From a virus, in IMG/VR virus record IMGVR_UViG_3300021225_000115, positions 1 through 37,952 of that record: DNA of 37,952 nt. One strand, 5' to 3'. Position 1 is the first letter of the stretch, and every line of letters begins with the position of its first letter. A program made the translations under genes and the position numbers. This document shows, in pieces, positions 13,785-35,772 of the stretch. A model generated the notes under the pieces. The model ran no database searches, had not been told where the DNA came from, and saw only the letters and a list, made by a program, of their open reading frames with translations.

Positions 13785-16700
13785 TCACATTGCCGATCCG
13801 GCAGACCAGCCGGGTTCTTGCGTTGGCGTCACCACGGGTGCGGGGGTGGCCGAGCCGCCGACAAGCACCCACTTTCCGTTTTTGTAGACAATGTCTCGGC
13901 CATACTGGTCCTTGTCAGTAGAGCCTTCCCGAATTTCTTTGGGTACAGTCGTATCCGTTTCACGCTCCCCTGCAAACGGCGGCATCTTGGCATTTGCTTC
14001 CTTGATGTACTTGTCGAGCGGGTGGTTTTCAGCAAACCACTTCTGGTACTCGACCAGATCGTTCGGGTTCTTGGCTTCAGTGCGCTGCCACAAGGCGTGC
14101 ATGTCTGCCTTTTCGTATTCGCGTTTGAGGACGGCCTGCTGCATCGCAAGAACAAACTTGACGGCCTCCGGCTGCATGTTTGGATCGGTCATGTACTTGC
14201 CGACCAGTTCCATCTCTGGGCTGGTGGCGTTTGCGCCAATGACCTCAACAATGCCTTGCGCCCTGAGCTTGATGGCCTCTTGGGCCAATGCAGCAATCTC
14301 GCCCTCTCCGAGGCCAGCGACGTTGACCCCCAGTGCGCGGAGCAGAGCGTCAGCCTGTGCCACCTGCGAGGTGAACGACCCTGCGGGCAAGGATTGATAG
14401 ACCTCAATCTGCTTCTGGACGTTCTGAAGCTGACCGGGGACAGTCTCCATGATCCCTGCTGCCTTGTTTCGGAAGTCCTGCGTCATGATGTTGTTGGCCT
14501 CGTCGGCTGCAACCATTCCGCGCTTGGACAAGACGGCATCTACCGGGATTGTGATGGCCGTACCATCTGCCGCAATACCAGTGGTATAACCGTTTTGCTC
14601 GATTTCAGCGAGTTTCAGCCTTGCTTGCTCTGCGGCAGTTCTTTGGGGAGTTCCCTCTTTCGCCGCTCCCCATTGCGCTACCAGTTGGTTCAGGGATGCG
14701 TAATCATTCATGAACGGAATGCTCACCCCCTTCGGCCCCGCAACATTGCCACGAACATCTGCAAGGGACAGGGTTGGCAAAGCGCCGTTTTTGCCAGTCT
14801 GGTCAGGCCCGCCTGCGGTTTGGAAGTTCAAGCCGCCCTGCGGGAGAAGGTATTCCAGCCCCTGCGCTTTTGCAAAGTCATCGATCTTCATCCCAGAATA
14901 TTGAGGGTTGGTGAACATGAAGTTGTTGTACAGGTCGTTCAACTCGCTCATGTTTGCAATGTTACGCTGAGCAACCTCTCCGCGCTGTTTCTCAAGCCCA
15001 GCGTAGGTGTTGGCTGCGCCGCCGATGCCCTGCAGGATTGCAGACCCAAGGTAGCGGGAAGGAGAGGAAGCCATCGTGCCGATGCCGCCAAGGATAGACA
15101 GCAGAGCGTCCTTGTTCACGCGACCATCGGGATTATAGAACATCTTTCCGAGCGTGGTGCGATCTTCATAAGCCTTGTCGCCACCCATAGGCTCGCGGGC
15201 AGGACCAGCAAGGCCACCAGAAACGTTAAGAGCGCCGGGAGCGGCATTTGCGTTGACTGGCGCAAGGCCGCCGCTAACAGCACCAGCGCCTTCAGACGCG
15301 GCCCACGGCGTTGCGCCGCCACGGTTTTGGTACAGCCACTTGGCCATAGCCTCTTGGAGATCGGGCGTCATTTTCTCGTCGCCGGAAAGGCCCATATTTT
15401 CCTTGATGTCGCGCAGCGTGCTGCCGACGATCTGGTAGGCACCCATCGGGGTTGCTACATAACCGAGGTTCTGTTTGGACCACTGGCCGTACGGGCCGTT
15501 CGGATCAGAGAATTGGATAGCCTGATCCACGGTCATGTCAGTGACCTTGGTGCCAGCGAATGGTCCGTCTTCACGGTTGCTGAAACCATACAGAGCATCG
15601 TAGTCGCCGCCGCTTTCGCGTGCCTTGATCTTCGGGGCAAGTTCGGTCCAACCCATCGGCTCTGCGGTCTGGTTAGGTTTCAAGCCACCAATAGTCGTGT
15701 CGCTGACAGGGACTACCTTCAAGCCATCTGCGGTGAATTTAGGGGTAGTTGTTGCAGCCGATAGCGGAGCCACACCGCCAGTGATGCCAGCAGCAGTCAG
15801 GTCTTCCATAGGTACGGCTTCCGGCACAAGACCCGTGGGGCGAGGCTGCGGGCGCAGGGAGGTCTCGGGGGCGTAGGATGGCACAGGTGCAGCAGCGTCA
15901 CCACCGAGGTACGCCACAGGGTTCAGACCAGAAGCAGATGCCGAACGAGCAATGCCGGGATCGCGTGCTGCAAAGCCGCGCAGATCGGCGGTGAGCGTGC
16001 TGCGATCTTCGGGGTTCATTTGGTCAACGGCACCAAACGGAGAGCGCGGCAATGGGCGGCGCGAGGTCATCGGCGCAAGCGGCGACACTAGCCCTTCAGG
16101 GCGGGCCTGCGGACGCAGGGAGGCTGATGGTGCATATTGGGACTGCGGGGGCGCACCAGCCTCTCCACCGAGGAACGCGACGGGGTTCACGCGCTCCGAA
16201 GACGCATCCCTTGCAACTCCGGGGTTGCGGACAGCAAAGGCACGAAGGTCAGCAATATACTGCCGCCGCTCTTCTGGTGTCATGTCTTCGACGGCACCGT
16301 TCGTGGCATAGCCAGCGCGGCCACCACGGTTCATGCCGAAGAGTTTCATGGCGATCTTGGCGATGTCTACGACGTCTTCCCCGGTGGAGCGTGCCTGCGG
16401 GGCCTGTGTTGGAGGGGCAAGGCCATTGCTCTTCTTGTCTTGATCGGACTGGGCATCCAGAGCGTCGGACAGATAGCTGCGTGTCCCCATCTGCGGATCA
16501 TCGTGCCGCATGTATGCAGGGCCGCCGCTGGCATAGTTGCCGACGACGCCACCGTGTGCAGTTCTCTGATTGGCCGCTTTAAGTGCGCGGCGCTGTTCGT
16601 TCGACATCCAGAAGTCGCCGTCCTTGCCGAATTTCTCTTTCAGATTGGCCAGATTGGTGCCGAAGTCAGATGCCGCGCCCAACTGTTCGGCCAAGCTGGC

Positions 16701-18230
16701 CTGTGCATTTTGCAAGAACGCAGGATCAGCCACCATCAATTCACGGACGTTCAGGTTGGCTTGAGGCACGTAGCCCTGAGAGCCGTAGGGGCCAGCCACG
16801 CCGCCGCCCTCTGCTTTGGTGGCGCGGTCGTAATCAACGGTCTTGTATCCAGTCGGGTGCAGGCCAACGGCATCAGGGCGCACCTTCTCGACCTCATCAG
16901 CCATAAAGCCGATGTGGGTCTCCGGTTCGCCCTTGTAGCGGTACTTGTAGATCGGCAGGCCGTTGTCGCCTTCGCCGATGCGCTGAACATCTTCTTTGAG
17001 GCGGCGATCCGAGAAGAAGGAACTAGGCTGCGTGGTTGTAGTGGTCGACCCTGATGCGGCACCAGTACCCGTCATAATGCCTGCAAGCCACGTTGCAACT
17101 TCAAACGGGTAGCCGTTTTCCTTCATGAACTGGTCGCGCAGTGCGTCCTTGCCAGCCTGTTCGGTCTTTCGCTCCAGAGAGCCAGCCGCGACTTTTGCAT
17201 TGGCCCCAGCCAAGCCAAGCTCTTGTTCCTTTGCGCCAAGCCCTGCGGTCTTTTCAGCCGAACCAGACCCAATCTCGTACCCTTGTTTTGCAAACTCCCC
17301 TTGCTTTGAGGCGTTTGTCAGGCCGAGGTTTGCACCGGAAAGGCCCAGAGCAGCCAATTCTTTGGCCGATCCGGAGCCAATATCGTAACCCTGCTGTGCA
17401 AGTTTTGCTTTTTGGGCAGCGCTGAGCAGGCCGAGGTTTGCGCCAGAGAGGCCAAGGTCGGACAGTTGTTTACCGCCTTCTGTAAGCCTTGCAAGATCAC
17501 GCTCACTGGCCCCCAGAGCCTGCGTATACCCTTGGTTATAGATGTCGGCCATCGTCTTGCCGTAAGCCATCCCTTGCTGGTTTGACAGGTTAGCAGCGGC
17601 AACGCCCGCGCGGTCCCCGCCAAAAGCTCCGGAAGACGCAGCCCTGCCGAGAGCACCAGATTGCGCCTGCTCATTTGCTTGACGCAGCATGGCCCCAGTC
17701 GTGTCGGCCACGTTTTGGATGTATGGCGACATGTATTTGTCAATACCAGCGTAGGCAGGCCCCATGCCTGCCGTTGTGGCGCTAGTGGCTGCAGAGAGGT
17801 ATGGATCATACGAAGAAGCAGCCTCGCCAGTTTCGTTATATGCCTCTTCAGTTCCATAGAGACCGCCAGCAGTAGCGTCGTCAAGACGGCTGGTCGCTTT
17901 AGACAGATACGGATCGTAAGACGCCGTTGCGGCATTTGCCAAGTCCGAGGCGGTTTTTGTGCCAGATAGCCCGCTGGTGGTTGCATCGCTCAGAAGGGTT
18001 GAAGCCTTGTCAAAGTAAGGCTTATACGCTCCGGCTGCCGCGTTGATGTCGGCGATACCGCTTTTCTCTTGTTCATTTAGCTGCGCCACAAAGTCGGACG
18101 CGGTAGTCCCGAATTTCTTGAATGGCGTTGCGGCGACGTTTTCCGCTCTTGCGTTGACCGCGTTGTAACGGGCAAGAACCTCCGGCGGAATGGTGACTTG
18201 AGACGTGGTTGTGGAGTTCTTCTTGCCCAT
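13785..18230 (-). CDS. Giant multidomain virion protein: S74-like chaperone segment plus lysozyme/transglycosylase domain
   Basis: 1481 aa. Residues 1-400 are Ala/Gly-rich with two different 36-residue repeats: YDPYL..AT at 69, 105 and 141, and LGLSGANLGL at about 259-330. Residues about 405-475 match the Peptidase S74 intramolecular-chaperone signature (FSDRRLKEDVQRIG, PIYKYRYKG, HIGFMADEVEKVRPDAV), normally at the C-terminus of fibres. Residues 645-808 hold two 76-77-residue repeats ending in SLRP..RP motifs. Residues about 860-980 form a lysozyme-like fold with the catalytic-type Glu in KARESGGDYDALYGF, then PMGAYQIVGSTL and W.YQNRGG. This would locally open peptidoglycan during DNA ejection. 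The last 400 residues are helical without clear motif. Upstream of the 611-aa internal protein; likely an internal-core or ejection protein. Confidence 0.75.
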   Translation of the reverse strand: MGKKNSTTTSQVTIPPEVLARYNAVNARAENVAATPFKKFGTTASDFVAQLNEQEKSGIADINAAAGAYKPYFDKASTLLSDATTSGLSGTKTASDLANAATASYDPYLSKATSRLDDATAGGLYGTEEAYNETGEAASSYDPYLSAATSATTAGMGPAYAGIDKYMSPYIQNVADTTGAMLRQANEQAQSGALGRAASSGAFGGDRAGVAAANLSNQQGMAYGKTMADIYNQGYTQALGASERDLARLTEGGKQLSDLGLSGANLGLLSAAQKAKLAQQGYDIGSGSAKELAALGLSGANLGLTNASKQGEFAKQGYEIGSGSAEKTAGLGAKEQELGLAGANAKVAAGSLERKTEQAGKDALRDQFMKENGYPFEVATWLAGIMTGTGAASGSTTTTTQPSSFFSDRRLKEDVQRIGEGDNGLPIYKYRYKGEPETHIGFMADEVEKVRPDAVGLHPTGYKTVDYDRATKAEGGGVAGPYGSQGYVPQANLNVRELMVADPAFLQNAQASLAEQLGAASDFGTNLANLKEKFGKDGDFWMSNEQRRALKAANQRTAHGGVVGNYASGGPAYMRHDDPQMGTRSYLSDALDAQSDQDKKSNGLAPPTQAPQARSTGEDVVDIAKIAMKLFGMNRGGRAGYATNGAVEDMTPEERRQYIADLRAFAVRNPGVARDASSERVNPVAFLGGEAGAPPQSQYAPSASLRPQARPEGLVSPLAPMTSRRPLPRSPFGAVDQMNPEDRSTLTADLRGFAARDPGIARSASASGLNPVAYLGGDAAAPVPSYAPETSLRPQPRPTGLVPEAVPMEDLTAAGITGGVAPLSAATTTPKFTADGLKVVPVSDTTIGGLKPNQTAEPMGWTELAPKIKARESGGDYDALYGFSNREDGPFAGTKVTDMTVDQAIQFSDPNGPYGQWSKQNLGYVATPMGAYQIVGSTLRDIKENMGLSGDEKMTPDLQEAMAKWLYQNRGGATPWAASEGAGAVSGGLAPVNANAAPGALNVSGGLAGPAREPMGGDKAYEDRTTLGKMFYNPDGRVNKDALLSILGGIGTMASSPSRYLGSAILQGIGGAANTYAGLEKQRGEVAQRNIANMSELNDLYNNFMFTNPQYSGMKIDDFAKAQGLEYLLPQGGLNFQTAGGPDQTGKNGALPTLSLADVRGNVAGPKGVSIPFMNDYASLNQLVAQWGAAKEGTPQRTAAEQARLKLAEIEQNGYTTGIAADGTAITIPVDAVLSKRGMVAADEANNIMTQDFRNKAAGIMETVPGQLQNVQKQIEVYQSLPAGSFTSQVAQADALLRALGVNVAGLGEGEIAALAQEAIKLRAQGIVEVIGANATSPEMELVGKYMTDPNMQPEAVKFVLAMQQAVLKREYEKADMHALWQRTEAKNPNDLVEYQKWFAENHPLDKYIKEANAKMPPFAGERETDTTVPKEIREGSTDKDQYGRDIVYKNGKWVLVGGSATPAPVVTPTQEPGWSAGSAM
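15807..16298 (-). repeat. Two tandem 76-77-codon repeats with SLRP motifs
   Basis: Copy A is 16068-16298 and copy B 15807-16034, separated by 33 bases (period 264). Each encodes GAV..M.PE, then a helix ADLR.FA.R.PG.AR, NPVA.LGG, and YAP..SLRPQ.RP.GLV. The copies differ by many substitutions, so the duplication is old and the pattern is kept at protein level. Confidence 0.9.
17241..17456 (-). repeat. Two 36-codon repeats (LGLSGANLGL units)
   Basis: Copies at 17349-17456 and 17241-17348, each 108 bases, encode LGLSGANLGL then a variable helix, then QGY(D/E)IGSGSA. A third, degraded unit (LGLAGANAKV) follows. Likely an extended helical or glycine-zipper-like array within the N-terminal region of the 1481-aa protein. 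Confidence 0.88.
17780..18026 (-). repeat. Three 36-residue-spaced Y(D/K)PY(L/F) repeats
   Basis: YKPYFDKAST, YDPYLSKATS and YDPYLSAATS start at residues 69, 105 and 141 of the 1481-aa protein, an exact 36-residue period, with ATTSGLSGT / ATAGGLYGT linkers. The same period as the LGLSGAN array suggests one underlying structural register. Confidence 0.85.
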
Positions 18231-18234
18231 TGCC

Positions 18235-18723
18235 TTACCCTTCAGTCAGTCCTGTTTTGGCGTTATACAGGAAGTAGACGCCAGCGGGAGCGCCGAACAC
18301 ACGTTCGTAGAGGCGAATTTTTGCCTCAGTCCTTGTGTTGGACAATACCCCAATCGACAGCGGAATACCAAGATTTTCTGAGATGCTCTTTGCCCACTCC
18401 GCCAGCTTGCGTGCGCGGCCCCCTTTTGCCGACCGAAACTCAGGCGCGACGTAGATCGCCTTCTCTTCCAAGATCGGTTCCTTGCTGTACCAGACGGGTC
18501 CGATGCGAAGTACGATGGCAGCCTCAAGAGGCTCTCCGGGGCCGCCGCCGATCACTCCAGCCACGCCCATGTTGTTGATCAATGCTGCATACATATGTTC
18601 CGCCAGCATCATCTCGTCAGGTTGGACAAATGCGTTTTCCCGCGTGGCGTCCATCGTCAGGCGCATCAGTTCGTTGAAGTCTTCTACAACACCGCGTCGT
18701 ACGAAGATTTCGCTCATGTTCAT
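18235..18723 (-). CDS. GNAT-family acetyltransferase
   Basis: 162 aa; AAGGA six bases before the ATG. The GNAT fold is seen as VRRGVVEDFNELMRLTMDAT (motif C/D start), a central strand ending in EKAIYVAPEFRSAKG, the acetyl-CoA pyrophosphate loop RSAKGGRARKLAEWA (motif A, R/Q-x-x-G-x-G/A type, residues about 96-110), and motif B near IGVLSNTRTEAKIRLYERVF. Small GNAT proteins occur within the structural operons of several podoviruses, where they could modify a virion protein or a host target; the substrate is unknown. It sits four bases upstream of the 1481-aa gene and is co-transcribed with the internal virion proteins. Confidence 0.8.
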   Translation of the reverse strand: MNMSEIFVRRGVVEDFNELMRLTMDATRENAFVQPDEMMLAEHMYAALINNMGVAGVIGGGPGEPLEAAIVLRIGPVWYSKEPILEEKAIYVAPEFRSAKGGRARKLAEWAKSISENLGIPLSIGVLSNTRTEAKIRLYERVFGAPAGVYFLYNAKTGLTEG

Positions 18724-18724
18724 C

Positions 18725-19714
18725 TTAATCCTTTTTTGGCCCCGGCAGGTTTTGCAGGGTCTTGATGGTTTTCTGGCGCATCTTCTTCACGAAGGCATCC
18801 AAGACCTTGTGACCGTGATCAAGATCGCCACCACCAATATGTACCACATCCTCCGGTGGGATAACATACTCACCACCTGCGGCCACGATTGGAACGCCGT
18901 TAGTGGAGCCTCCGCCAGCTTTTCCGCTGGAGTACGGGATGATGCCAGCCGTGTTCAAGGCACCCGATAGAGGGCCGCCCTCAAAATCGTCACCGGATGC
19001 GCCAAGACCGCCGCCATTGATGAAGTCGGACGGCCCCTTCGCCTTGCCGCCGATCAAGGAGCCTGCCAGATAGCCAATAGGACCGCCGACCAGACCTCCG
19101 ATCACGCCACCGTAGTTCGGCTTATTTGGGAATGGGTTGGGCAAGCCCATGCTGCCAGTACCTCCAGAGCCGCCACTAGAGCCGCTGCCAGACCCTACGG
19201 GGCGGATGCCGATGGCATTTGACACGCTGGCAAGCGGGCCGCCGGAGAATGTTTTGCCGGAAGTCCCCGGCCCGCCGCCGTTAACCATGTCGCGCAGGCC
19301 AGTGTACTGGGATGCTGCCTTGCCGCTGTCCGCTCCGCCGCCGCCTGCCTTGCGCGGTGTATCCGTGTCATAGGGCATATCGGTTGCGCCGTAGGGAGCC
19401 TTCTTGGTAATCTCGTCGTTGTTGCTGCCGAAGATAGACTGGGCGACCTTGAAGCCCGCCATGCTGTTGCCTTCGCCCATCGCCGAGATGATGTCGGCGG
19501 GGATGACGTACGAGCCAGAGGCGACGTGCATCGGCAGGTGGTCCGTGCGGCCCGCCACCGCGCTGTGGATTGCACCCTTGTGGACCTTACCACCCGTGGC
19601 GCGGGCGGTACGCAGCGCAGCAGCCACGGCCTGTTTCTGGGGGTGTCCAGCCGCAACCATCTCGGAGATGTTGCTGGAGATAGTTTTCTGGGACGAACCC
19701 TTTTTCAGCGGCAT
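18725..19714 (-). CDS. Gly-rich virion-operon protein with DUF6496-like N-terminus and duplicated YVIP motifs
   Basis: 329 aa from the ATG at 19714 (GAGG upstream). The N-terminus PLKKGSSQKTISSNISEMV continues AAGHPQKQAVAAAL, a pattern I recognise from phage proteins (DUF6496-like). The rest is low-complexity Gly/Ser with two internal duplications. The first is NGGG.G.SG..F.GGPL....N..GI.P, twice. The second is VASGSYVIPADIISAMGEGN versus VAAGGEYVIPPEDVVHIGGG, the xGE-[YF]-V-[IV]-P element common in phage tape-measure-like and hypothetical proteins. It also has RATGGKVHKGA and other Gly-Gly motifs shared with neighbours. Function unknown; a structural or ejection component is likely. Confidence 0.65.
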   Translation of the reverse strand: MPLKKGSSQKTISSNISEMVAAGHPQKQAVAAALRTARATGGKVHKGAIHSAVAGRTDHLPMHVASGSYVIPADIISAMGEGNSMAGFKVAQSIFGSNNDEITKKAPYGATDMPYDTDTPRKAGGGGADSGKAASQYTGLRDMVNGGGPGTSGKTFSGGPLASVSNAIGIRPVGSGSGSSGGSGGTGSMGLPNPFPNKPNYGGVIGGLVGGPIGYLAGSLIGGKAKGPSDFINGGGLGASGDDFEGGPLSGALNTAGIIPYSSGKAGGGSTNGVPIVAAGGEYVIPPEDVVHIGGGDLDHGHKVLDAFVKKMRQKTIKTLQNLPGPKKD

Positions 19715-19721
19715 GGCGACC

Positions 19722-20063
19722 TCAAGAGAAGCTGACGGTGACAACCTGCCCAGTGCCGGGCGCGATCACGATACCATTGTCCACGGGCAAATTCACGTCG
19801 ATAATCCCAACCGTGTTTGGGATGGCGGCAAGTGGGCTTGTTGTAACGCCAGTGGCTATTGCGTCGTACGCAACACCTGAAGTGCTTCCTGCTGTTACTA
19901 CAGAAATGCGGGCCAATCGTCCCTGTCTCTTTGACACAACCGTCGCGGCGGAAATTCCTGTTTCTACTTGATAACCCTGTACCCGCAGGAACGTAGTTCC
20001 GAGGTTGCTCAGAGCCTTGACGATGTTCTGAGACGACGAAAGGATGTCTGTAATAGATGCCAT
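19722..20063 (-). CDS. Small virion-operon protein, unknown
   Basis: 113 aa; its ATG overlaps the stop of the tail-hub gene (TGATG). Helical start (SITDILSSSQNIVKALSNLG) followed by a beta-rich body (ISVVTAGSTSGVAYDAIATG, then PNTVGIIDVNLPVDNGIVIA). This resembles small beta-sandwich decoration or tail-completion proteins, although no specific family is recognised. Located between the tail hub and the Gly-rich protein. Confidence 0.6.
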   Translation of the reverse strand: MASITDILSSSQNIVKALSNLGTTFLRVQGYQVETGISAATVVSKRQGRLARISVVTAGSTSGVAYDAIATGVTTSPLAAIPNTVGIIDVNLPVDNGIVIAPGTGQVVTVSFS

Positions 20064-22423: not shown

Positions 22424-22426
22424 GAA

Positions 22427-23170: not shown

Positions 23171-23197
23171 CGCATCACCCCTTTAGGCAGGCGTAGG

Positions 23198-24255: not shown

Positions 24256-24256
24256 T

Positions 24257-24665: not shown

Positions 24666-24672
24666 TCCCTCC

Positions 24673-28245: not shown

Positions 28246-28248
28246 TTC

Positions 28249-28500
28249 TCAACACTTCCATGCTTTCAAGGACAGCGCCTTGCGGGTTGGCTTGCCGCTT
28301 TCGTCCTTCATCGGACCCGGCATTCCAGACATTCTAGCACAGAACGATTTCTTGCGGGCAGCGTCTTTTTCGGTTTTGGGCGACGGGGCCGGAGGTTTTA
28401 GGTTCATACCTTCCGCCTTTGCCGACGCCCGTCCCTTTGCGTTAAGGCCACCCTTTGGGTCTTGGCCCTCCTTGCGGGTCCAAGCAGGTGACTTTGCCAT
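28249..28500 (-). CDS. Basic small protein, DUF6321-like
   Basis: 83 aa. The pattern SPAWTRKEGQDPKGGLNAKG, later KSFCARMSGMPGPMKDESGK and a C-terminal LSLKAWKC, matches a family I recognise in many marine and freshwater phages (DUF6321-like: PAWQRKEG..PKGGLN.KGR ... SFCARM.GM). It is highly basic and probably nucleic-acid or virion associated; its function is not established. The ATG overlaps the TAA of the upstream gene. Confidence 0.7.
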   Translation of the reverse strand: MAKSPAWTRKEGQDPKGGLNAKGRASAKAEGMNLKPPAPSPKTEKDAARKKSFCARMSGMPGPMKDESGKPTRKALSLKAWKC

Positions 28501-28808
28501 TACCGCACCCCAGCTTGAACAACGTACGCCGTAACTGTGCCAGTGCCGCCCGTGACGTTGATTGACAGGGCGTGATGCGGAACAGTGATGGAGCCATTCG
28601 CTGCTGCCGTAAGGCCAGAAAAACCAGATGGGGCGGCCCAGACAGACGGTGTTCCAGTGGAGGGATCGTCCATCGAAATCTCAATGTTGTAGGTTGGGCT
28701 GCCCGAAACGGTGACGACCAACCCAACATTGAAGGGATTTTGGAAGCTGTCCGATGCAATGATCGTGCTGCGGCCAGTGTTCGTTCTTGAAATTGTGACC
28801 GGGGTCAT
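28500..28808 (-). CDS. Small beta-rich head protein, unknown
   Basis: 102 aa, all-beta looking (VTISRTNTGRSTIIASDSFQ, VGLVVTVSGSPTYNIEISMD, GSITVPHHALSINVTGGTGT, VTAYVVQAGVR). The size and strand pattern suit a decoration or head-completion protein. GGAG lies near the ATG in TAGGAGACGACC. It begins just downstream of the GNRA-loop hairpin following the 58-aa gene. Confidence 0.6.
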   Translation of the reverse strand: MTPVTISRTNTGRSTIIASDSFQNPFNVGLVVTVSGSPTYNIEISMDDPSTGTPSVWAAPSGFSGLTAAANGSITVPHHALSINVTGGTGTVTAYVVQAGVR

Positions 28809-28827
28809 GGTCGTCTCCTATGAGGCG

Positions 28828-28846
28828 AAAGGGGCCTTTCGGCCCC
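28828..28846 (-). terminator. GNRA-loop terminator hairpin in the head-gene block
   Basis: On the minus strand GGGGCC, loop GAAA, GGCCCC, then TTT. A 6-bp GC stem with a stable tetraloop and short T-run, five bases after the stop of the 58-aa gene. Probably a partial terminator that reduces transcription into the downstream adaptor and tail genes relative to the capsid genes. Confidence 0.55.
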
Positions 28847-28851
28847 CTCTG

Positions 28852-29028
28852 TTACTTCACTTTGGCAGCGGCTGCTGACATCAAAGGCATACCATGAACG
28901 CTCTGCCCACCAGAAACGGTTTTGTTGCCGCTGGTGGTGTGAGGCTTGGCATCTTCCGTCTTGGACGGTTTGCCGACCGAGACCGTAGTCTTGATCGACA
29001 TGTTGGGTTTTTTGTTGCCAACGCGCAT
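28852..29028 (-). CDS. Small basic protein of the capsid block
   Basis: 58 aa from the ATG at 29028, overlapping the upstream TGA (TGATG). Sequence MRVGNKKPNMSIKTTVSVGK, then TEDAKPHTTSGNKTVSGG, ends MPLMSAAAAKVK. Basic, Ser/Thr/Gly-rich and likely disordered. No family known. Its position between the decoration-like gene and the terminator suggests a minor head component. Confidence 0.55.
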   Translation of the reverse strand: MRVGNKKPNMSIKTTVSVGKPSKTEDAKPHTTSGNKTVSGGQSVHGMPLMSAAAAKVK

Positions 29029-29480
29029 CAGACGGTATCCTGCGCTTGGATGTAGCGGACGGTCAACGTGCCAACGCCAGCGCCAGTGTTGGCCGACTTG
29101 ATCCAGATACGCTTGTCGGTCGTGCCGATGTCGTCCCACGCTGCGGTGCGGGTGGCATCGGTGCCGGGGTTCAAAGCGACAACGCCGACAGGCATTGCGG
29201 TCAAGGCGACCAGTTCGGTTGCAGTGGCCGTGGTGCCGACGCTCAAGGTGTTGGTCGCATCCCAACCCACAGTGTTCACCATCTGGATGTTCATGATGTG
29301 GCTGTTGGCAGGCAGAACGACGGTAGTGCCGAGAGCGGTGGCGGTGCCAGCTTGCGTGATCGGAACGGTCTGCACCATGACCACAGAACCGACGTTCTTG
29401 ACGTCTTGGCCGAGGGTAGTGCCAGAGGTGTTGAGGATGTTGCCCGCGCGGATGGGGCCTGTGAACGTAGTCTTACCCAT
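29028..29480 (-). CDS. Head decoration-like protein
   Basis: 150 aa from the ATG at 29480 (AAAAGGAACC upstream). The N-terminus GKTTFTGPIRAGNILNTSGT is shared with many small phage structural proteins. The body is beta-rich (VGSVVMVQTVPITQAGTATA, TVVLPANSHIMNIQMVNTVG) with a C-terminal strand GTLTVRYIQAQDT. It follows the major capsid gene after a strong hairpin. A capsid-surface decoration or head-fibre base is the likely role; no catalytic motif. Confidence 0.62.
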   Translation of the reverse strand: MGKTTFTGPIRAGNILNTSGTTLGQDVKNVGSVVMVQTVPITQAGTATALGTTVVLPANSHIMNIQMVNTVGWDATNTLSVGTTATATELVALTAMPVGVVALNPGTDATRTAAWDDIGTTDKRIWIKSANTGAGVGTLTVRYIQAQDTV

Positions 29481-29491
29481 GTTGGGTTCCT

Positions 29492-29522
29492 TTTGCACAA
29501 GTGGCCGCGCTGTCTGTGCAAA
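29492..29522. promoter_or_regulatory. 8-bp inverted repeat in the leader of the decoration-like gene
   Basis: TTTGCACA (29492-29499) and TGTGCAAA (29515-29522), 15 bases apart. On the minus-strand mRNA this would form a hairpin ending at the AAAAGG ribosome binding site of the 150-aa gene, so it could tune translation. Part of it (GCACAAGTGGC, 29495-29505) recurs exactly in the early divergent promoter at 4368-4378. Confidence 0.4.
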
Positions 29523-29569
29523 GTCCGCTGGGCGCGGTCAGGGCGGCAATTATACCCAGAAGGGAAAGA

Positions 29570-29587
29570 AGGGGGCCGAAGCCCCCT
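29570..29587 (-). terminator. UUCG-tetraloop hairpin after the major capsid gene
   Basis: Minus-strand AGGGGGC, TTCG, GCCCCCT, then TCTTTCCC, twelve bases after the capsid stop codon. The sequence of stem and loop is identical to the hairpin after the SSB gene at 5797-5814. Likely a partial terminator or a 3'-end stabiliser raising capsid mRNA relative to downstream genes. Confidence 0.65.
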
Positions 29588-29599
29588 CCAAACAGTCGC

Positions 29600-30511
29600 T
29601 TAGGACGGGGTCGAACCCCACACAGAACGCCAGTTGTAGTACGAGAAGGAGTACCGCTCGTAGCCTTTAACCAACAAGTTATCTGTGACGAAATCAACCT
29701 GCATGTCGGTTTCGAACTTCACACGCTCCATATACGACAGGCCGTCGATATTGGTCAGCAGGAACCAAGCCGAGGCCGACGTGAAGAAGTCGTTGACCAT
29801 GTAGCCTTCCGGCAAGCCGCCAGCGGTCGACATGATCGCGTTGACGTCGTTGTCGGCGGTGCCGGGGCGCAGTTCCGTCTTCGTCAGGCGGATGGCCACG
29901 GGTTCCAGTTGGGCCGGAACCACCAGCTTCCGCGCACGGGCGAAGACCTTCAGGCCAGCCTGATCGCGGAACTGGGTACGAATGCCGATCATGCCATTCA
30001 GCAGGGTCGCTTCGTTCAGTTCCACTTGGGTGGTCGGGGTGTTGGCCACCACGCCGCCGTCGATGGGGTGGTTCAGCGACAACAGAGCCACGCCGTCACC
30101 GCCAACCGAGGCGTTGTAGGTCGTTGCAGTGTTGAAGATGTTCGCGGCGTAGATTTCCTTGGTCTGCTGGAAGCTCTCAATCAGACCGAGGTTCGACGGC
30201 TGGAACTGGGTTTTGTACAGGTTGTCGTCGATGGCCTTGCGGGTGATCGCGTAGCCCAGACCGATTTCAACGTGTTCTTGGTTGTAGATGTAGCGTTCGC
30301 CAGCGCCGTTGTCGAAGGAGGTCTGGCCGCCTTCGGTCTTCAGTTGTGCGAAGCCCAAGAAGCGCATCTCAGCGGTGCGTTCCAGCGCCATCTTCGAATT
30401 GTGCTTCGTGAACAGCTTGTCGTACTGAGATGGGATCATCTCGTACTTGCCTTCGATCCCACGGAGGCCGGGGAGCAGAAGGTCTTTGATGGCAGAAAGA
30501 TTAACAGCCAT
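29600..30511 (-). CDS. Major capsid protein (Mu gpT / HK97-fold type)
   Basis: 303 aa. The start MAVNLSAIKDLLLPGLRGIE, then YDKLFTKHNSKMALERTAEM, HVEIGLGYAITRKAIDDNLY (a long spine-like helix region), and LLSLNHPIDGGVVANTPTTQ followed by VELNEATLLNGMIGIRTQFR are typical of gpT-like major head proteins. The C-terminal part (FFTSASAWFLLTNIDGLSYM, VKGYERYSFSYYNWRSVWGS) contains the conserved Y-S-F..W-R end. Position after the scaffold-like and GroES-like genes and before decoration genes, with its own hairpin terminator, agrees. No protease gene or delta-domain is obvious. Confidence 0.85.
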   Translation of the reverse strand: MAVNLSAIKDLLLPGLRGIEGKYEMIPSQYDKLFTKHNSKMALERTAEMRFLGFAQLKTEGGQTSFDNGAGERYIYNQEHVEIGLGYAITRKAIDDNLYKTQFQPSNLGLIESFQQTKEIYAANIFNTATTYNASVGGDGVALLSLNHPIDGGVVANTPTTQVELNEATLLNGMIGIRTQFRDQAGLKVFARARKLVVPAQLEPVAIRLTKTELRPGTADNDVNAIMSTAGGLPEGYMVNDFFTSASAWFLLTNIDGLSYMERVKFETDMQVDFVTDNLLVKGYERYSFSYYNWRSVWGSTPS

Positions 30512-30524
30512 TTCTCAATGCTCC

Positions 30525-31478
30525 TTACATGCCAGCGAAGTTGCGGGGCATAGCGTTGTTGAACGCGACCACGATGCGGTTGTAGCCGGACGTTGCGTCG
30601 TTGCCGTTGATGCCCGAAATCGGGGAGAACTGACCGGGAAGGTAGTTCTGGATGGCAACGATGCGGAACGGCAGGGCAGCGTTCGCGCCAGTGACACCAG
30701 CCGAGGACAGCGTGAACTGGTCAGCGAAGTAGTCGGAAAGACCGTTGTAGGTATTGCCGTTGGTTTCGCCAGTGGTGGTGCTGTCGTTCCAAGCGAAGCC
30801 GATGTTCTCGCCGACTTGAGCTTGACCCACAGCCGTGGCGGTGGTGTTCGAGTTGCCAGTCTGGACCGAGAAGCGGGCGTTCGGGTCGGTGATGACGTAG
30901 GCTTCCACGTCATTGGTGGTGTCCGAACCCGGCCAGTAGTTCGACCAGACGGTGCGCTTCTGCGACGTGGACAGGTACTTGCAGCCTGCAAACACGCCAG
31001 AAACGGGCACATAGACAGTGACCACGGGAGTGGAGACCGACGACGTGGCAACGGTGGCGGCAGTGCTTTGAACCACAGCGGTCGTAGACGTTGCCGAGAT
31101 AACCGTGAAGGCACCGTTCGGAACGCCAGTCGCGTTGGTCACGACGATGGTCGATCCGACGGGCGGTGCCCAGTTGGTCGACGCGAAAGTCGGGATGTTG
31201 TTGGTGGAGCTTGAGTAGCCAGTGAACGTGATCGTCATGGCACCAGTCGCCACGGTGGCGATGCCAGTGGCGGAGACGGTCAGGGTCACGGGGCTGACAG
31301 CCTGTGCGATGTAGCCAGTGCCCACGCCAGTGGCGTTCGAGGCTTGCATGACCGGATCGTTCAGGAAGATCGGGGTAGTGTTGCCGGAAGCAATCGCGGC
31401 CATCGTCTGCTCGTAGGTCGGAGCAGAACCAGCGCCTCGGTACTGGGCAAAGCCGTTTGGCGCAAAAGTGTTCGCCAT
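30525..31478 (-). CDS. Capsid-associated structural protein
   Basis: 317 aa from the ATG at 31478 (GGAGACC upstream). N-terminus ANTFAPNGFAQYRGAGSAPT, then YEQTMAAIASGNTTPIFLND. A Thr/Val-rich immunoglobulin-like insert (about 60-165) separates it from the C-terminal part (GCKYLSTSQKRTVWSNYWPG, DVEAYVITDPNARFSVQT, IVAIQNYLPGQFSPISGING). Proteins with this plan sit next to gpT-like capsid genes and are probably abundant head proteins. The insert may be a surface-exposed carbohydrate-binding Ig-like domain. First gene after the candidate late promoter at 31579-31606. Confidence 0.68.
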   Translation of the reverse strand: MANTFAPNGFAQYRGAGSAPTYEQTMAAIASGNTTPIFLNDPVMQASNATGVGTGYIAQAVSPVTLTVSATGIATVATGAMTITFTGYSSSTNNIPTFASTNWAPPVGSTIVVTNATGVPNGAFTVISATSTTAVVQSTAATVATSSVSTPVVTVYVPVSGVFAGCKYLSTSQKRTVWSNYWPGSDTTNDVEAYVITDPNARFSVQTGNSNTTATAVGQAQVGENIGFAWNDSTTTGETNGNTYNGLSDYFADQFTLSSAGVTGANAALPFRIVAIQNYLPGQFSPISGINGNDATSGYNRIVVAFNNAMPRNFAGM

Positions 31479-31733
31479 GTCGGAGGTCTCCTTTTCAGGA
31501 GGTCCATCATCGCGCACCGGGGCGATTGTAGAACCGGGGAATTGTTCAGTCTCCCACGCCGGGGGGAGAATGACTGACAGAATACAGGAATTTGTTGGTT
31601 TGTCCAGCGGGCCTCTTCTCGGCCTTTATTATGGTTCCTGTGCGGTCCATGTTTGCTGAGAAGAGGTGGTGTCGGTCTTTCCCGACTGTCACCCCGAAGG
31701 GAAGTCCCAACCACGAGACTGGTTGCAGTGGTA
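31479..31733. other. 255-base intergenic leader upstream of the capsid block
   Basis: The longest gene-free stretch of the late operon. On the minus strand it holds a promoter-like pair (31579-31606), a 9-bp inverted repeat CCTCTTCTC/GAGAAGAGG (31612-31620 and 31658-31666), and a small stem GTCGG/CCGAC near 31674-31690. A 34-codon minus-strand reading frame begins at 31650 but has no ribosome binding site. Confidence 0.6.
31579..31606 (-). promoter_or_regulatory. Candidate late promoter for capsid genes
   Basis: Minus-strand TGGACA (31606-31601), 16-base spacer, TATTCT (31584-31579), about 95 bases before the ATG of the 317-aa head protein. The -35 matches five of six and the -10 four of six consensus bases. 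It is in the longest intergenic gap, just after a strong inverted repeat, so an independent transcript for the two capsid proteins is plausible. Confidence 0.4.
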
Positions 31734-31976
31734 CTATTGGCTTGTGGAAGTGTCAACCGCTGCGAACTTTGAACACGCAATGGCCCGCACTGCATCGTAC
31801 GGAATACCCTTCTTGCCAGATACCACGCGCACTAAGGCGCAGATGTGCATCGGTTTGCCTTTCGTCTGCGGTGCCGGGGTGAGGTGGGCGCAATCAAGGC
31901 ACTTCTTGCCCAGATCGGGATTGGCCCATGTCACCTGACCGGGAACAGTCTTCTGCATCCTCTCAGTCAGTTCCAT
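31734..31976 (-). CDS. Small cysteine-rich protein, possible metal-binding
   Basis: 80 aa; GGAGG precedes the ATG at 31976. Cysteines appear as KKCLDCAHLTP, then HICALVR and a last Cys in RAIACSKFA, so a C-x2-C plus two more could bind zinc. No DNA-binding motif otherwise. It lies between two control regions (hairpin at 31998-32019 and the capsid promoter), so it may be transcribed separately from its neighbours. Function unknown. Confidence 0.55.
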   Translation of the reverse strand: MELTERMQKTVPGQVTWANPDLGKKCLDCAHLTPAPQTKGKPMHICALVRVVSGKKGIPYDAVRAIACSKFAAVDTSTSQ

Positions 31977-31997
31977 TACATTCCTCCAGATGTGACA

Positions 31998-32019
31998 ATG
32001 GGGGACCGAAGCCCCCCAT
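31998..32019 (-). terminator. 9-bp stem UUCG hairpin before the cysteine-rich gene
   Basis: Minus strand ATGGGGGGC, TTCG, GTCCCCCAT: nine pairs including one G-U. A T-run (CTTTTT) follows only on the plus side, so on the minus strand it is more likely an attenuator or RNA-processing hairpin. It stands about 70 bases after the stop of the 51-aa gene. It is the third UUCG-loop hairpin of the window. Confidence 0.5.
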
Positions 32020-32090
32020 CATCTTTTTAACCCCACCCAAACATCGGGCAACTCTCAGCAGGCTCGTTGTGGTGAAATTGAACCATACAT

Positions 32091-32246
32091 TCACTTTGTG
32101 GGTTTGTCAACACCCTCGGAGTTGATGAACGCGGAAACGTGCGGCTCAATGTCGTCCCACGCCGCCTGCACTCTTGGGCTTCCTTCCTCTCGGATAACGC
32201 GGCGCAGGCGGTTGATTTTGTTGTAGATGGTGACCGCCTTGATCAT
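32091..32246 (-). CDS. 51-residue small late protein
   Basis: Translation of the minus strand from the ATG at 32246 gives MIKAVTIYNKINRLRRVIRE, then EGSPRVQAAWDDIEPHVSAF, ending SEGVDKPTK and a TGA at 32093-32091. The ATG overlaps the upstream TGA (ATGA), and the codons are GC-rich like neighbouring genes. It is mostly helical and charged. Function unknown; short enough to be missed by length-filtered gene calling. Confidence 0.62.
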   Translation of the reverse strand: MIKAVTIYNKINRLRRVIREEGSPRVQAAWDDIEPHVSAFINSEGVDKPTK

Positions 32247-32752
32247 TCGGGGATCGGGATTGCCTCGTACTTCTTGTTGATCTTGACCAGCGGGTCGCCC
32301 TTGTTGGTGCGGTCGAACTCGCCACCCTTAGCCTGCGTCAACTGTGCTTCCTTGTCGCGCATCTGCATGCGGGCCTTGCGGAGCGCAGCATTCTGGGCCT
32401 CCTGCGTGATCTCCATCGGGCGTTCCATCAGAACCATGCCCTTGCGGGTAATCTCGACGCCCTTGTAGCCCATCGGCATCAGTTCCGGGTGGCGGCTGGC
32501 GGGCACGACCTCCCAGCCCTTGCGGGCCAGAGCGACTTGGTGAGCGGGGTCTTCAGCGCCGAGGATGGTGCGGACTTTCCACTCGTAGGACCAGCCGTCT
32601 GGGATGATGCCGAGTTCGATGTAGTACTCATCGTGTCCGTCATCACCCAAATCGGAGGCATGGCCACGCAATTCAGATGCACGGCGGGCGGCGCGTTCAC
32701 GCGGCGTCTCGCTGGAGGTGGCGTCGGGGCGCATTGTGGGGCGAACGGTCAT
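32243..32752 (-). CDS. Late-operon protein of unknown function
   Basis: 169 aa. A basic helical N-terminus (SSETPRERAARRASELRGHA) is followed by EYYIELGIIPDGWSYEWKVR, TILGAEDPAHQVALARKGWE, VVPASRHPELMPMGYKGVEI and RKGMVLMERPMEITQEAQNA. The I.PDGWSYEWK ... ARKGWE.VPASRHP pattern is one I associate with a conserved phage head-gene neighbourhood, usually next to the scaffold. A capsid-assembly accessory role is an inference. Coupled by overlaps on both sides. Confidence 0.6.
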   Translation of the reverse strand: MTVRPTMRPDATSSETPRERAARRASELRGHASDLGDDGHDEYYIELGIIPDGWSYEWKVRTILGAEDPAHQVALARKGWEVVPASRHPELMPMGYKGVEITRKGMVLMERPMEITQEAQNAALRKARMQMRDKEAQLTQAKGGEFDRTNKGDPLVKINKKYEAIPIPE

Positions 32753-33585
32753 TGGATTTTCCCTTCCTTCTTGAGGGCGACCAAGTTTTTGGCGTAGTCC
32801 TCCGGTTTCATTCCCATCATCTCCGCCATCTCGCGCTGTGCGGCTGACAGGCGGATCACGTTGGAGCTTGGCGACTGGTTTCCACGGTTTGACGGAGCCG
32901 CAGCGGGGGCCGCGTCACGGCGGCGCACCACTTTTGCAGCGTACTGGTCATCGGTTTCAGTTTTGGCTGCCTTGCGGGTCACCTTCAGCGTCTCTTCGAT
33001 GGCATCAAAGTACTCGTCGGTGTCGGTCGGGATGCCTTCGGCGACGGCGAGGTTGTGGGCCGCGATCATCTTGGCGTTCAGGCGCTGATCGGTCACAAAC
33101 TCAGGGTGCTGACGGACCCAGTCGGCGCTGCGGCGCGAAAGTTGCGAGGCAAAAGCCTCCACAGGGTCAGCCGGGGGCATCTGAGGCTCTGGCTGGCGCG
33201 GCGCTTCCTCCATTGCCCTGCGCCCATTCTCCAACTGGAGCAGTTTAGCCTCGTTTGCCGACATTTCCCGCTGGATTTGTGTCGCGCGGCTGAAGTCGCC
33301 GCTCTGCATGGCAAAGGTGTGGGCTTGGCTCAAGAGTTCGATGTCACGGCTGACCGTGTCGATGGCGTTGACCACCAGTTGGAGGTTGGTTTCGTCCACC
33401 TCGCTCCGCGCATGGTGAACCTCGCGGGCAGCATAATGCAGCTTTTGCTCTGCGGCGATCCGTGCAGACTTTTCAGCCTCAAGCTGGCGCTTCAGGTCGG
33501 TGATGTATTCCGGTTCTGCTTCCTCCGGGGCGTCATTTTCCGGCGGAAGCTCCAGTTCCAGTTCTTCTTCGGTGTCATCAGACAT
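32749..33585 (-). CDS. Scaffold-like coiled-coil capsid assembly protein
   Basis: 278 aa. Acidic N-terminus (DDTEEELELELPPENDAPEE), a long coiled coil at about 30-130 (LKRQLEAEKSARIAAEQKLH, QIQREMSANEAKLLQLENGR), a middle region with FASQLSRRSADWVRQHPEFV, and a basic C-terminal helix pair (VIRLSAAQREMAEMMGMKPE, then YAKNLVALKKEG). Acidic-helical-basic layout with a small C-terminal capsid-binding HTH-like hairpin is the hallmark of podovirus scaffolding proteins. It is upstream of the capsid gene, as expected. Confidence 0.7.
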   Translation of the reverse strand: MSDDTEEELELELPPENDAPEEAEPEYITDLKRQLEAEKSARIAAEQKLHYAAREVHHARSEVDETNLQLVVNAIDTVSRDIELLSQAHTFAMQSGDFSRATQIQREMSANEAKLLQLENGRRAMEEAPRQPEPQMPPADPVEAFASQLSRRSADWVRQHPEFVTDQRLNAKMIAAHNLAVAEGIPTDTDEYFDAIEETLKVTRKAAKTETDDQYAAKVVRRRDAAPAAAPSNRGNQSPSSNVIRLSAAQREMAEMMGMKPEDYAKNLVALKKEGKIQ

Positions 33586-33596
33586 GGTTTTGCTCC

Positions 33597-33986
33597 TCAG
33601 TACACGGCATCTGGGTTGTCAACCCTGCCCTTGATGTTGACGTCATCGAAGATGCGGCAGAGGACGTTGTTCACGGTGATCGACCAACCGTCAGACGGGC
33701 GGAAGATCAGCCAGTCGTGATCGTTAAACTCCATGCCGGAGAACCAGTTGCCGTCCTGTTCGAACGCCAGAGGTCCGCGCTTGACCAAAAGACCGACTTT
33801 GGACTGGTAGCGGTCCTCATCGACGTGGCTGTCGGTCAGGATCAGGCCCGATTTTGTCTTCGTGGGGCGCAAATACGTCGCCAAAAGGACTTGATTGTGG
33901 AATAATTCCACATTAGAAATGTCACCAAGTTCCTCAAGGAGAGAAAGTTTTGGGTCAGTTTCGTGCAACATCGGCATATGGGGCAT
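33597..33986 (-). CDS. GroES-like co-chaperonin-type protein
   Basis: 129 aa from the ATG at 33986 (AAGGA seven bases before). The segment RPTKTKSGLILTDSHVDEDR is the mobile-loop-like part, followed by YQSKVGLLVKRGPLAF, DWLIFRPSDGWSITVNNVLC and RIFDDVNIKGRV. This pattern of short strands (KVG.VVK.G ... G/HDWV....SDG ... CR...d.dI.G.V) is the Cpn10 barrel. Phage-encoded Cpn10 homologues (T4 gp31 as the known example) fold the major capsid protein with host GroEL. Proximity to the scaffold and capsid genes fits. The GroEL-binding loop (IVL tripeptide) is here GLIL, so function is plausible but unproven. Confidence 0.6.
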   Translation of the reverse strand: MPHMPMLHETDPKLSLLEELGDISNVELFHNQVLLATYLRPTKTKSGLILTDSHVDEDRYQSKVGLLVKRGPLAFEQDGNWFSGMEFNDHDWLIFRPSDGWSITVNNVLCRIFDDVNIKGRVDNPDAVY

Positions 33987-33996
33987 GTTTAATCCT

Positions 33997-34212
33997 TCAG
34001 AGGGTTTTGTTGACGATTGTCTGCGCTTCGTCGCAGAGGTCGATGACCATATCCAACGCGGCAACCTTCCCGACTGCCTCGCGGTATGCCTCCATCGACG
34101 TGATGGAGTGTCCCCCAACGATGTTGGTGGCAATGTGATGACGTTCTTCGCTTATCAGCCTCCGAAGCTCGCGTTCGAAAACGCTGCTTGTCGTCTGGAT
34201 CATCTTAATCAC
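33997..34212 (-). CDS. Small helical protein, unknown (GTG or ATG start)
   Basis: 71 aa from GTG at 34212, or 68 aa from ATG at 34203; neither has a strong ribosome binding site. Sequence is helical: VFERELRRLISEERHHIATN, then SITSMEAYREAVGKVAALDM and VIDLCDEAQTIVNKTL. Short proteins of this kind often precede the Cpn10-like gene. Placed just after a GC-rich hairpin (34225-34260). Function unknown. Confidence 0.55.
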   Translation of the reverse strand: MIKMIQTTSSVFERELRRLISEERHHIATNIVGGHSITSMEAYREAVGKVAALDMVIDLCDEAQTIVNKTL

Positions 34213-34224
34213 TCATCTTTGGTT

Positions 34225-34260
34225 GCGGCCCCCGACAACATGGGGGATGCCGGAGGCCGC
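34225..34260 (-). terminator. Nested GC hairpin between late genes
   Basis: The minus strand can form GCGGCC/GGCCGC (outer arms at 34255-34260 and 34225-34230) or an alternative inner stem CCCCC/GGGGG (34229-34233 and 34242-34246). The two pairings share bases and are mutually exclusive. No T-run follows. Located about 25 bases after the stop of the 495-aa gene; attenuation or processing is possible. Confidence 0.4.
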
Positions 34261-34284
34261 GAGTAGGCACAGGGAGGGCGTGCC

Positions 34285-35772
34285 TTATGCGTTCTTACCA
34301 TACTCTTTGATTTTTTCAAGGCGGCCCTCGCCGGAGCCAGCCCCGTACTTCATCTTAGGGTACACCTTGCCGCCAGACTTCCGCGCCATCATCGGAGGCA
34401 CCGGAGGCATCGGGCCGGGACCGCTCTGCGGGGGCATTGGACCAGCGCCAGCGGCACCAGCCATAGCCGCGCCGAGACCCGGAGGCAGGCGCATCGGCGG
34501 TGCCGGAGGCGCAGCCATCGGGGGCGGGCCGCCGACCGGAGGCATAGGCATGGGCGGCATGATGCCAGTGGTAGGCTTGTTGGCGGTGTGGGGCATGACA
34601 TTGATCATGATGTTGGTCTTGCCCTTGCCAGCGCGGCCACCAGTGGCGCGTGCCATACGGTCGTCGTCCTTCTTGGCCGTTTTGGCGGCGTCTTTGAAGT
34701 CTTGAGCCGACGGCGCACCCTTGTCTCCGGGTTTCCGCATTTTCTCGCCGCGTTCGCGCTTGGCGTTGATGTTGGCATAGAGACCACCACCATCCTTCTT
34801 GCCCATCATAGCGCCACCGCAAGCCTTGCAGGTGCAGCCCTTGTCGTGGGCAGCGCCGCCGCGCTTGTAATCATCATCCCCGCCACGCGGATCGTCTTCT
34901 GCGCGCGACCAGCGTGGCTTCGATGGATATTGCGGAATGTCTTTGCGGCCAGTTCCAGCGGGTGCTACTTTTTTCTTGACCCACTTTTCTTTGCCCTCGT
35001 CCCATTCTTTGCCACGGGTGTCGCCATAGAAGGGATGCTTGTCGTCGGCGTCAGCCTTGCCGCCGCCCATTTTGGCAGTGCGTTTTGGCGCGTCGTGCTT
35101 CTTGTCCTCCGTGGACTTCTCCCAATCCTTCATGGACATGCCATGCTTCTTGGCCAGCTTCTTGTCTTCGGCCTTGTCCTTGGCGGAGCCTTCGACCATG
35201 CCACCCTTCTTATAGTAGTCTGGCAGCGTCTCGGTGCCCTTCCTGATGCTTTCCTTTTCCCCTTCGGTCAGCCCCATGTCGACTGGCCGCTTCATCGGGC
35301 GCAGGGACTTCTTTGGGGCCAAGACGGACGAGAAATTGCCATCGTCTTCCGGCATGCCGTCCTGCTCAGAGGAACCGATGTCACTGGGGGTCGGGCGCGG
35401 ACGGGGGCGCAGGGACGTGGTTGGCGCAAAGTAGCCGCCATTGTTCTTAGCAACGCGACCGCCTTTTTTCATGCCGCCGACGTGCTTCTTGCCTTCTCGC
35501 TCTTCGTTGGCGTCCTTCTGGTTGGTGTTGGCCAGACCGACTGTTTCCTTGAAGCCACGCGGTGCGCGGGACAGGTTGGTCTTGGCTTCATCGCCATCAA
35601 CCTTGCCACCAGCCTTGAACGCACGGCGCGAGATCGGGCGCATGCCAGTCTTGGCTTCGGTGTTCAAGGGTTCATCGGGGGTCCAAGTGGAGGCATCAAC
35701 CTTGCCACCGGAGCTTTCGATAAGGCTGCGGGCCTTATCATTCCGCTTTGCACGAAGTGCTTTGAAATCCAT
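34285..35772 (-). CDS. Repeat protein of [K/R]xGG[K/R]V and SLRP motifs, unknown function
   Basis: 495 aa, GAGG eight bases before the ATG. Almost entirely low-complexity, Lys/Gly/Asp-rich and probably disordered. About eight Gly-Gly motifs punctuate it (SSGGKVDAS, KAGGKVDGD, KKGGRVAKN, KKGGMVEGS, GGGKADADD, KRGGAAHDK, ATGGRAGKG, KSGGKVYPK). Two copies of an AP..SLRP..RP motif lie near 35281-35435. A CTCKACGG pair near the middle might bind zinc, and a Pro/Gly/Met-rich stretch (PPMPMPPVGGPPPMAAPPAP) precedes the end. The same motifs occur in the internal-virion proteins at 11931-19714. It lies between the gp88-like and head genes. A virion-internal, DNA- or protein-binding linker is a guess. 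Confidence 0.6.
   Translation of the reverse strand: MDFKALRAKRNDKARSLIESSGGKVDASTWTPDEPLNTEAKTGMRPISRRAFKAGGKVDGDEAKTNLSRAPRGFKETVGLANTNQKDANEEREGKKHVGGMKKGGRVAKNNGGYFAPTTSLRPRPRPTPSDIGSSEQDGMPEDDGNFSSVLAPKKSLRPMKRPVDMGLTEGEKESIRKGTETLPDYYKKGGMVEGSAKDKAEDKKLAKKHGMSMKDWEKSTEDKKHDAPKRTAKMGGGKADADDKHPFYGDTRGKEWDEGKEKWVKKKVAPAGTGRKDIPQYPSKPRWSRAEDDPRGGDDDYKRGGAAHDKGCTCKACGGAMMGKKDGGGLYANINAKRERGEKMRKPGDKGAPSAQDFKDAAKTAKKDDDRMARATGGRAGKGKTNIMINVMPHTANKPTTGIMPPMPMPPVGGPPPMAAPPAPPMRLPPGLGAAMAGAAGAGPMPPQSGPGPMPPVPPMMARKSGGKVYPKMKYGAGSGEGRLEKIKEYGKNA

Follow-up and report, generated by a model that had tools for sequence, protein, structure and literature searches.

A short arginine- and proline-containing motif shared by phage proteins and Rhodobacterales cell-wall enzymes as a candidate periplasmic docking signal

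Why should two otherwise dissimilar proteins of one phage carry the same twelve-residue motif? The question is raised by the IMG/VR virus record IMGVR_UViG_3300021225_000115 (positions 1 to 37,952; this whole stretch of 37,952 nucleotides is called the window here), in which the pattern AP..SLRP..RP had been noticed in a protein of 1481 residues (P0001) and in one of 495 residues (P0002) encoded 18 kb away. A sequence-only reading had taken it for a docking or processing signal used inside the virus particle. We found the motif on exported cell-wall enzymes of Rhodobacterales as well as on peptidoglycan hydrolases of unrelated phages. This suggests imitation, by phage proteins, of a host "address label" bringing enzymes to the cell wall. 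We give about even odds (probability roughly 0.5) to the reading that AP.[TKRS]S[LIP]RP..RP is a Rhodobacterales periplasmic docking motif of cell-wall enzymes, copied by envelope-acting phage proteins.

All four copies claimed for the two proteins were located (Table 1). The strict pattern occurs exactly four times in the window, always in frame, on the minus strand and in P0001 or P0002, far above what shuffling produced: when 17 window proteins were shuffled 20,000 times, the mean was 0.0000 for the strict pattern (4 observed) and 0.00215 for the looser form [ST][LIPVM]RP..RP (6 observed). Two looser copies had been overlooked, at the C-terminus of P0017 and at the N-terminus of P0018; the latter, VRPTMRP, is degenerate and may be a separate signature (RPxMRP). 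The second copy of P0001 lies 59 residues ahead of a lysozyme-like match. The two copies in this protein had been described as ends of a repeat unit of 76–77 residues. A repeat does exist, with a true period of 87–88 residues; its similar part spans about 66–67 residues, from MTPEER or MNPEDR to GLV, and reaches about 76–77 similar residues only if extended upstream.

P0001 combines a DNA-ejection/virion-structural N-terminal part, a Peptidase_S74 domain (Pfam PF13884, residues 407–455), the two motif copies and the lysozyme-like domain. It matches phrog_6121 (1.1e-26), the DNA ejection protein family phrog_4287 (2.3e-7) and phrog_14527, and by this homology to ejection and virion structural PHROG families it is a candidate podophage DNA-ejection protein. 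Its homolog in MW202675, a related circular 61-kb genome whose major capsid protein is about 92% identical to that of the window, is annotated as internal virion protein D. Residues 857–984 matched the 'endolysin, lysozyme-like domain' of Lentibacter phage ICBM1 and other roseophage proteins by tblastn; phrog_14527, matched by the same region, is without an assigned function in PHROG, and neither Pfam nor a PDB sequence search returned a match for it. Of the two carriers described earlier as virion proteins, P0001 alone matches virion-protein families; P0002 has no Pfam match, and its three PHROG matches are all of unknown function. For P0017 and P0018 no family was found in Pfam or PHROG. Three of the four carriers are encoded in the structural half of the window; P0017 is encoded beside the primase gene, outside the structural cluster.

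A scan of GTDB genomes for AP.TSLRP..RP associated the motif with Rhodobacterales. The scan listed 80 loci with 82 matches, and proportions alone are comparable between scans of this kind; counted from record titles, 39 of the 80 listed loci and 26 of the 29 listed matches in the longest frame belong to Rhodobacterales. In the family of a Roseovarius genome (198 genomes), AP..SLRP..RP gave 48 matches against 4 for a control read backwards; in this and the other family scans the centre genome had been picked for having a match and family names were deduced from the titles of the records. Among 30 loci fetched from this family, 17 had the motif in the longest frame and 27 look by eye like genuine exported proteins. 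The host carriers comprise MltB_2 lytic transglycosylases with PG_binding_1, PBP4/S13 carboxypeptidases, Extensin-like_C proteins, an SLT-type transglycosylase, TonB_C proteins and one Ser/Thr kinase-like protein. A further carrier, itself without a family match, is encoded between tolR and tolB (L303) and is therefore TolA by position. In the Rhodobacterales enzymes the motif often stands directly behind the signal peptide. When the N-terminal regions of the 30 best-scoring loci per host family were compared, [ST][LIPVM]RP..RP was present in 12 of 30 PBP4 and 11 of 30 MltB_2 proteins of the Roseovarius-genome family, in 0 of 29 MltB_2 proteins of Sphingomonadaceae (p = 2e-4 for the MltB_2 contrast) and in none of the reversed sequences; many other PBP4 N-termini have a partial SLRPxxR at the same place. 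As a side observation, AP.TSLRP..RP lies C-terminal to the kinase part in the Rhodobacteraceae Ser/Thr-kinase-like protein (L294, 5600–7999).

The motif also recurs in unrelated phages. Scanning IMG/VR with the back-translated motif listed 80 loci, with 81 matches, of at least 118 stretches; the reversed peptide served as control (82 stretches, 80 loci listed), again comparable in proportions. The motif frame was the longest one in 31 of the 81 matches listed (22 of 66 distinct contexts), against 3 of 80 (3 of 69) for the reversed peptide, where credible genes were rare; the Fisher p-values of 2e-8 for matches and 1e-5 for distinct contexts are too small, because the contigs are related. Thirty-five of the 80 listed loci were inspected in full, and ten of these carriers were tested with Pfam. 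Four of the ten contain peptidoglycan-hydrolase domains, namely Phage_lysozyme (L183 and L161), Amidase_2 (L137) and Phage_lysozyme2 (L188). The L137 protein has three SLRP..RP copies and a hydrophobic N-terminus, and both it and the L161 hydrolase appear by eye to have a signal sequence or membrane anchor. A further protein (L156) bears the motif at its C-terminus and weakly resembles P0001 in the N-terminal part of the latter (single comparison, E = 4e-6). Other carriers are small and basic: on two unrelated contigs (L145, L158) their genes stand between that for the portal or head-tail adaptor and that for the major head protein, and on a third (L163) a terminase gene is present on the same contig. 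The carriers of L204 and L145 found no match when used as queries in the phage collection, and those of L141, L204 and L144 stay unplaced because their neighbour proteins gave no PHROG match. Among nine isolate phages, three of them scanned in part, the Roseobacter phage CRP-901 is the single one with the motif in a gene judged real, as SPRP..RP at the end of the annotated gene gp71; QDWS535, RW (part) and HTVC023P had no motif in a gene judged real. Variants of the form S[QP]RPKxKP occur in KZY1, a phage known from metagenomes.

Among relatives of the window phage (131 loci besides the window's own, 132 in all), the motif is retained in part. Of three forms counted, [ST][LIVM][RK]P..[RK]P alone was in excess, with 35 matches in forward and 5 in reversed proteins. 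Conservation beyond this genome, on which the sequence-only reading had staked its claim, holds for a looser form, the strict one being confined to the window's own locus. In terms of non-redundant family members, with the window included and with some P0001 and P0002 homologs being fragments, the RP..RP core was found in 7 of 19 P0001 homologs (6 of 18 relatives) and is lost in the others; [STAEM][LIVMP]RP..RP occurs in 15 of 74 P0002 homologs, an N-terminal RP..RP core in 44 of 75 P0018 homologs and the C-terminal motif in 4 of 6 members of the P0017 family. The motif lies about 25–105 residues upstream of a hydrolase-type match in all seven motif-bearing P0001-type proteins, and these matches fall into four PHROG classes: phrog_1044 in four relatives (one also with Pfam SLT), phrog_873 in one, phrog_24249 in one and phrog_14527 in the window; phrog_24249 is labelled a tail protein, yet it is also matched by the Phage_lysozyme2 protein mentioned above. 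The linkers around the motif are Pro/Ala-rich by eye and otherwise unalike. In these 6 of 18 relatives the motif is thus kept while its surroundings drift, as had been proposed, and while the class of hydrolase changes. Kept amid drifting flanks, and found in unrelated proteins beyond what composition yields in the reversed, backward-read and shuffled controls, the pattern behaves in these two respects as a short linear docking motif.

The periplasm is the compartment common to the host carriers, whose shared theme is peptidoglycan remodelling and the Tol/Ton machinery. The phage hydrolases have this theme too, and we read the pattern most simply as a docking motif copied by phages. In Rhodobacterales it would mark exported peptidoglycan enzymes and TolA/TonB linkers, and it would most likely bind a shared partner in the envelope, by which cell-wall enzymes are brought together where the cell grows or divides. 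Envelope-bound phage proteins would carry the same motif, that is, the putatively ejected P0001 with its lysozyme domain, the apparently exported endolysins and probably other ejected proteins, and through it they might be recruited to the host cell-wall machinery at entry or lysis. Here the host carriers look exported by eye, and export or ejection of the phage carriers is inferred, as are binding, partner and recruitment from the sequences. For P0017, P0018, P0002 and the small basic proteins this reading holds only on condition that the envelope is their destination as well. A more specific version is put forward tentatively: S[LIP]RPxxRP may be an order-specific periplasmic docking code by which Rhodobacterales attach cell-wall enzymes and TolA to a single hub. 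Several unrelated phage lineages would have copied it onto lysozymes that are ejected, onto endolysins and onto small proteins directed to the envelope, so that these either are recruited to the cell-wall machinery of the host or jam it. As for the partner, phylogenetic range and theme lead us to guess at DalA, a septal lipoprotein of Rhodobacterales, or a component of Tol-Pal.

Several results weigh against a docking motif copied from the host. In the 132 loci the strict form gave two matches, both in the window's own locus and none in relatives, and SLRP..RP was as frequent in reversed as in forward proteins (3 each). A hydrolase-type match is also present in 7 of the 9 motif-negative P0001 homologs tested, so the motif is not needed for the hydrolase domain. 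P0002, P0017, P0018 and the small basic phage carriers have no hydrolase match, which leaves P0001 as the one carrier of the window whose motif adjoins a peptidoglycan-active domain; no obvious signal peptide was seen in P0017, and signal peptides were judged by eye in all carriers. The isolates SIO1, DSS3phi2 (part), CRP-4, ICBM1 and pCB2047-A, all from Rhodobacterales hosts, showed no motif in a credible gene. Matches exceeded the backward-read control in the Streptomyces family (101 genomes; 12 vs 6) and in the Sphingomonas family (99 genomes; 7 vs 1) as well, where 0 of 10 loci fetched from the two together look like genuine genes. Finally, the major capsid protein of the window gave one weak match in 295 Rhodobacteraceae genomes and did not identify the host; that the window phage infects Rhodobacterales is presumed from the sequences.

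The motif might instead have no specific partner and be a favoured basic, proline-rich and protease-resistant linker that spaces domains or sticks to anionic polymers of the envelope; its recurrence would then reflect how common such linkers are in these proteins. The Pro/Ala-rich and otherwise unalike flanks would agree with this, as would the many partial host copies in which the last proline is missing (SLRPxxR) and the free loss of the motif in relatives. Against it, the order of residues matters: the reversed peptide was in the longest frame in 3 of 80 listed matches against 31 of 81, the backward-read control gave 4 matches against 48, reversed N-termini had 0 against 11–12, and the spacing S/T-[LIP]-RP-xx-RP is maintained in hosts and phages. 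We consider such a linker unlikely. Shared descent, with hydrolases captured from Rhodobacterales together with an N-terminal motif that is now a functionless relic in the phage, would explain why the motif stands ahead of the catalytic domain in host and phage alike; it fits poorly with a motif that stays while the hydrolase class changes and that also stands at one terminus of proteins lacking a hydrolase match (P0017, P0018, L145, L158), and we give it little credence.

The sequence-only reading, in which the motif acts within the virion to load proteins into the head or to bind a shared partner (capsid, portal or scaffold), draws on P0001 being an ejection-type protein, on P0002 and P0018 lying in the head cluster and on the two small carriers encoded between portal or adaptor gene and head protein gene. 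Its idea of a short docking-type linear motif agrees with our results. The particle role does not: the motif stands on host cell-wall enzymes and TolA/TonB, and since exported host enzymes never enter a phage head, action inside the particle is not supported. The small carriers of L145 and L158 may nonetheless have a role in the particle. The apparently exported endolysins L137 and L161, the position of P0017 beside the primase and the absence of the motif from most P0001 and P0002 homologs likewise speak against a virion-internal signal, which we regard as improbable. Very improbable, finally, is a proteolytic maturation site of the virion; a short motif repeated between domains would suit it, but the host carriers are not prohead proteins, and no sign of a protease or of cleavage at the motif came to light, though no search aimed at either was made.

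If a docking motif copied by phages is the right reading, the cell-wall enzymes of Rhodobacterales have a targeting signal that had gone unrecognised, and this signal could be used as bait to identify the hub coordinating them. It would also explain how the lysozymes of tailed phages might be directed to their target instead of merely diffusing, and it may offer a sequence clue to the hosts of uncultivated phages. Motif mimicry by phages is known in principle; no description of the present motif, of the proteins that bear it or of its use on hydrolases of tailed phages was found in the open-access PMC literature, in line with the earlier statement that none was known.

Further observations concern the window and its relatives. 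A weaker copy, SEPRLRPTTKG, had been reported near the right end and is rejected here: it is without the second RP, and its open reading frame, P0004, runs into a P7-type Illumina index adapter and is chimeric. The adapter and the junk beyond it (to 37952) close the contig, so about the last 190 bases are not phage. Several window proteins share, by eye, GG[KRV][VA] patches (GGRAGYATNG, KKGGRVAKNNGG, RSGGRVSS, ATGGKVHKG), namely P0001, P0002 and the proteins encoded at 11931–13766 and 18725–19744, all on the minus strand; these patches are possibly a second shared signal. The head gene cluster also encodes a GroES-like co-chaperonin. Many of the 75 non-redundant P0018 relatives have an N-terminal signature of RPxMRP followed by a PRERAARR-like stretch. 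A search for loci related to P0001 with P0001 as the query confirmed no relative. In the IMG/VR record behind one related locus (L035; 90582 bases; L552–L556), P0001 matches lie at mirror positions, 7032–8267 on the minus and 82316–83551 on the plus strand, and this seemingly palindromic record is probably an assembly artefact.

Table 1. Positions of the motif copies, their carrier proteins and other features of the window.
Feature	Position	Strand	Remarks
Motif copy 1, APSASLRPQARP	16098-16133	-	P0001 residues 700-711
Motif copy 2, APETSLRPQPRP	15837-15872	-	P0001 residues 787-798
Motif copy 3, APTTSLRPRPRP	35392-35427	-	P0002 residues 116-127
Motif copy 4, APKKSLRPMKRP	35284-35319	-	P0002 residues 152-163
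Motif copy 5, SIRPKRRP	1557-1580	-	near P0017 C-terminus, ..PSASIRPKRRPEGLGQ then stop
Motif copy 6 (degenerate), VRPTMRP	32726-32746	-	P0018 N-terminus, MTVRPTMRPD
P0001, 1481-aa ejection-type internal virion protein	13785-18230	-	Pfam and PHROG matches, MW202675 homolog
Lysozyme-like domain of P0001	15279-15662	-	residues 857-984; phrog_14527, tblastn
P0002, 495-aa basic protein	34285-35772	-	head gene cluster; phrog_16028, phrog_22379, phrog_11180
P0017, small two-cysteine protein	1539-1754	-	71 aa from the Met common to relatives; beside primase
P0018, 169-aa protein	32243-32752	-	head cluster, between 278-aa P0011 and major capsid protein region
GroES-like co-chaperonin	33597-34133	-	phrog_3188
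P0004, chimeric open reading frame	37362-37952		runs into adapter
P7-type Illumina index adapter	37765-37822		

Known systems offer parallels for several parts of the proposed mechanism. The classic ejected internal protein, gp16 of T7, reaches the periplasm, where it cleaves peptidoglycan, and ejection proteins are known to exchange their hydrolase domains (PMC8954989). P0001 resembles this type as a large internal virion protein with a peptidoglycan-hydrolase domain (a transglycosylase in gp16) and in the mosaic swapping of hydrolases among its relatives; it differs in the putative docking motif ahead of the hydrolase domain, none being mentioned for gp16-type proteins in the cited parts of that account (PMC8954989). 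In Caulobacter, DipM is a hub that docks autolysins through its LytM groove, so that one periplasmic protein binds unrelated cell-wall enzymes (lytic transglycosylases, an amidase and a carboxypeptidase) much as we propose here; the cited sections describe the groove and not a Pro/Arg motif on the targets, and they concern Caulobacter rather than Rhodobacterales (PMC10336132). DalA is a divisome-associated outer-membrane lipoprotein of Rhodobacterales, septal in location, which co-precipitates peptidoglycan enzymes, Pal and FtsZ and of which, according to its authors, 93% of Rhodobacterales genomes have a homolog (PMC10470522). As a septal scaffold for such enzymes it has a taxonomic range matching that of the motif, whereas no motif-dependent binding is described in the cited sections and its link to the motif would be hypothetical (PMC10470522). 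Foreign proteins can bind host envelope hubs by disordered epitopes, as filamentous phages and colicins do when they hijack Tol proteins; while those known cases use other epitopes, here tailed-phage proteins share their motif with the host TolA itself, as a putative mimic of the partner side (PMC7391070).

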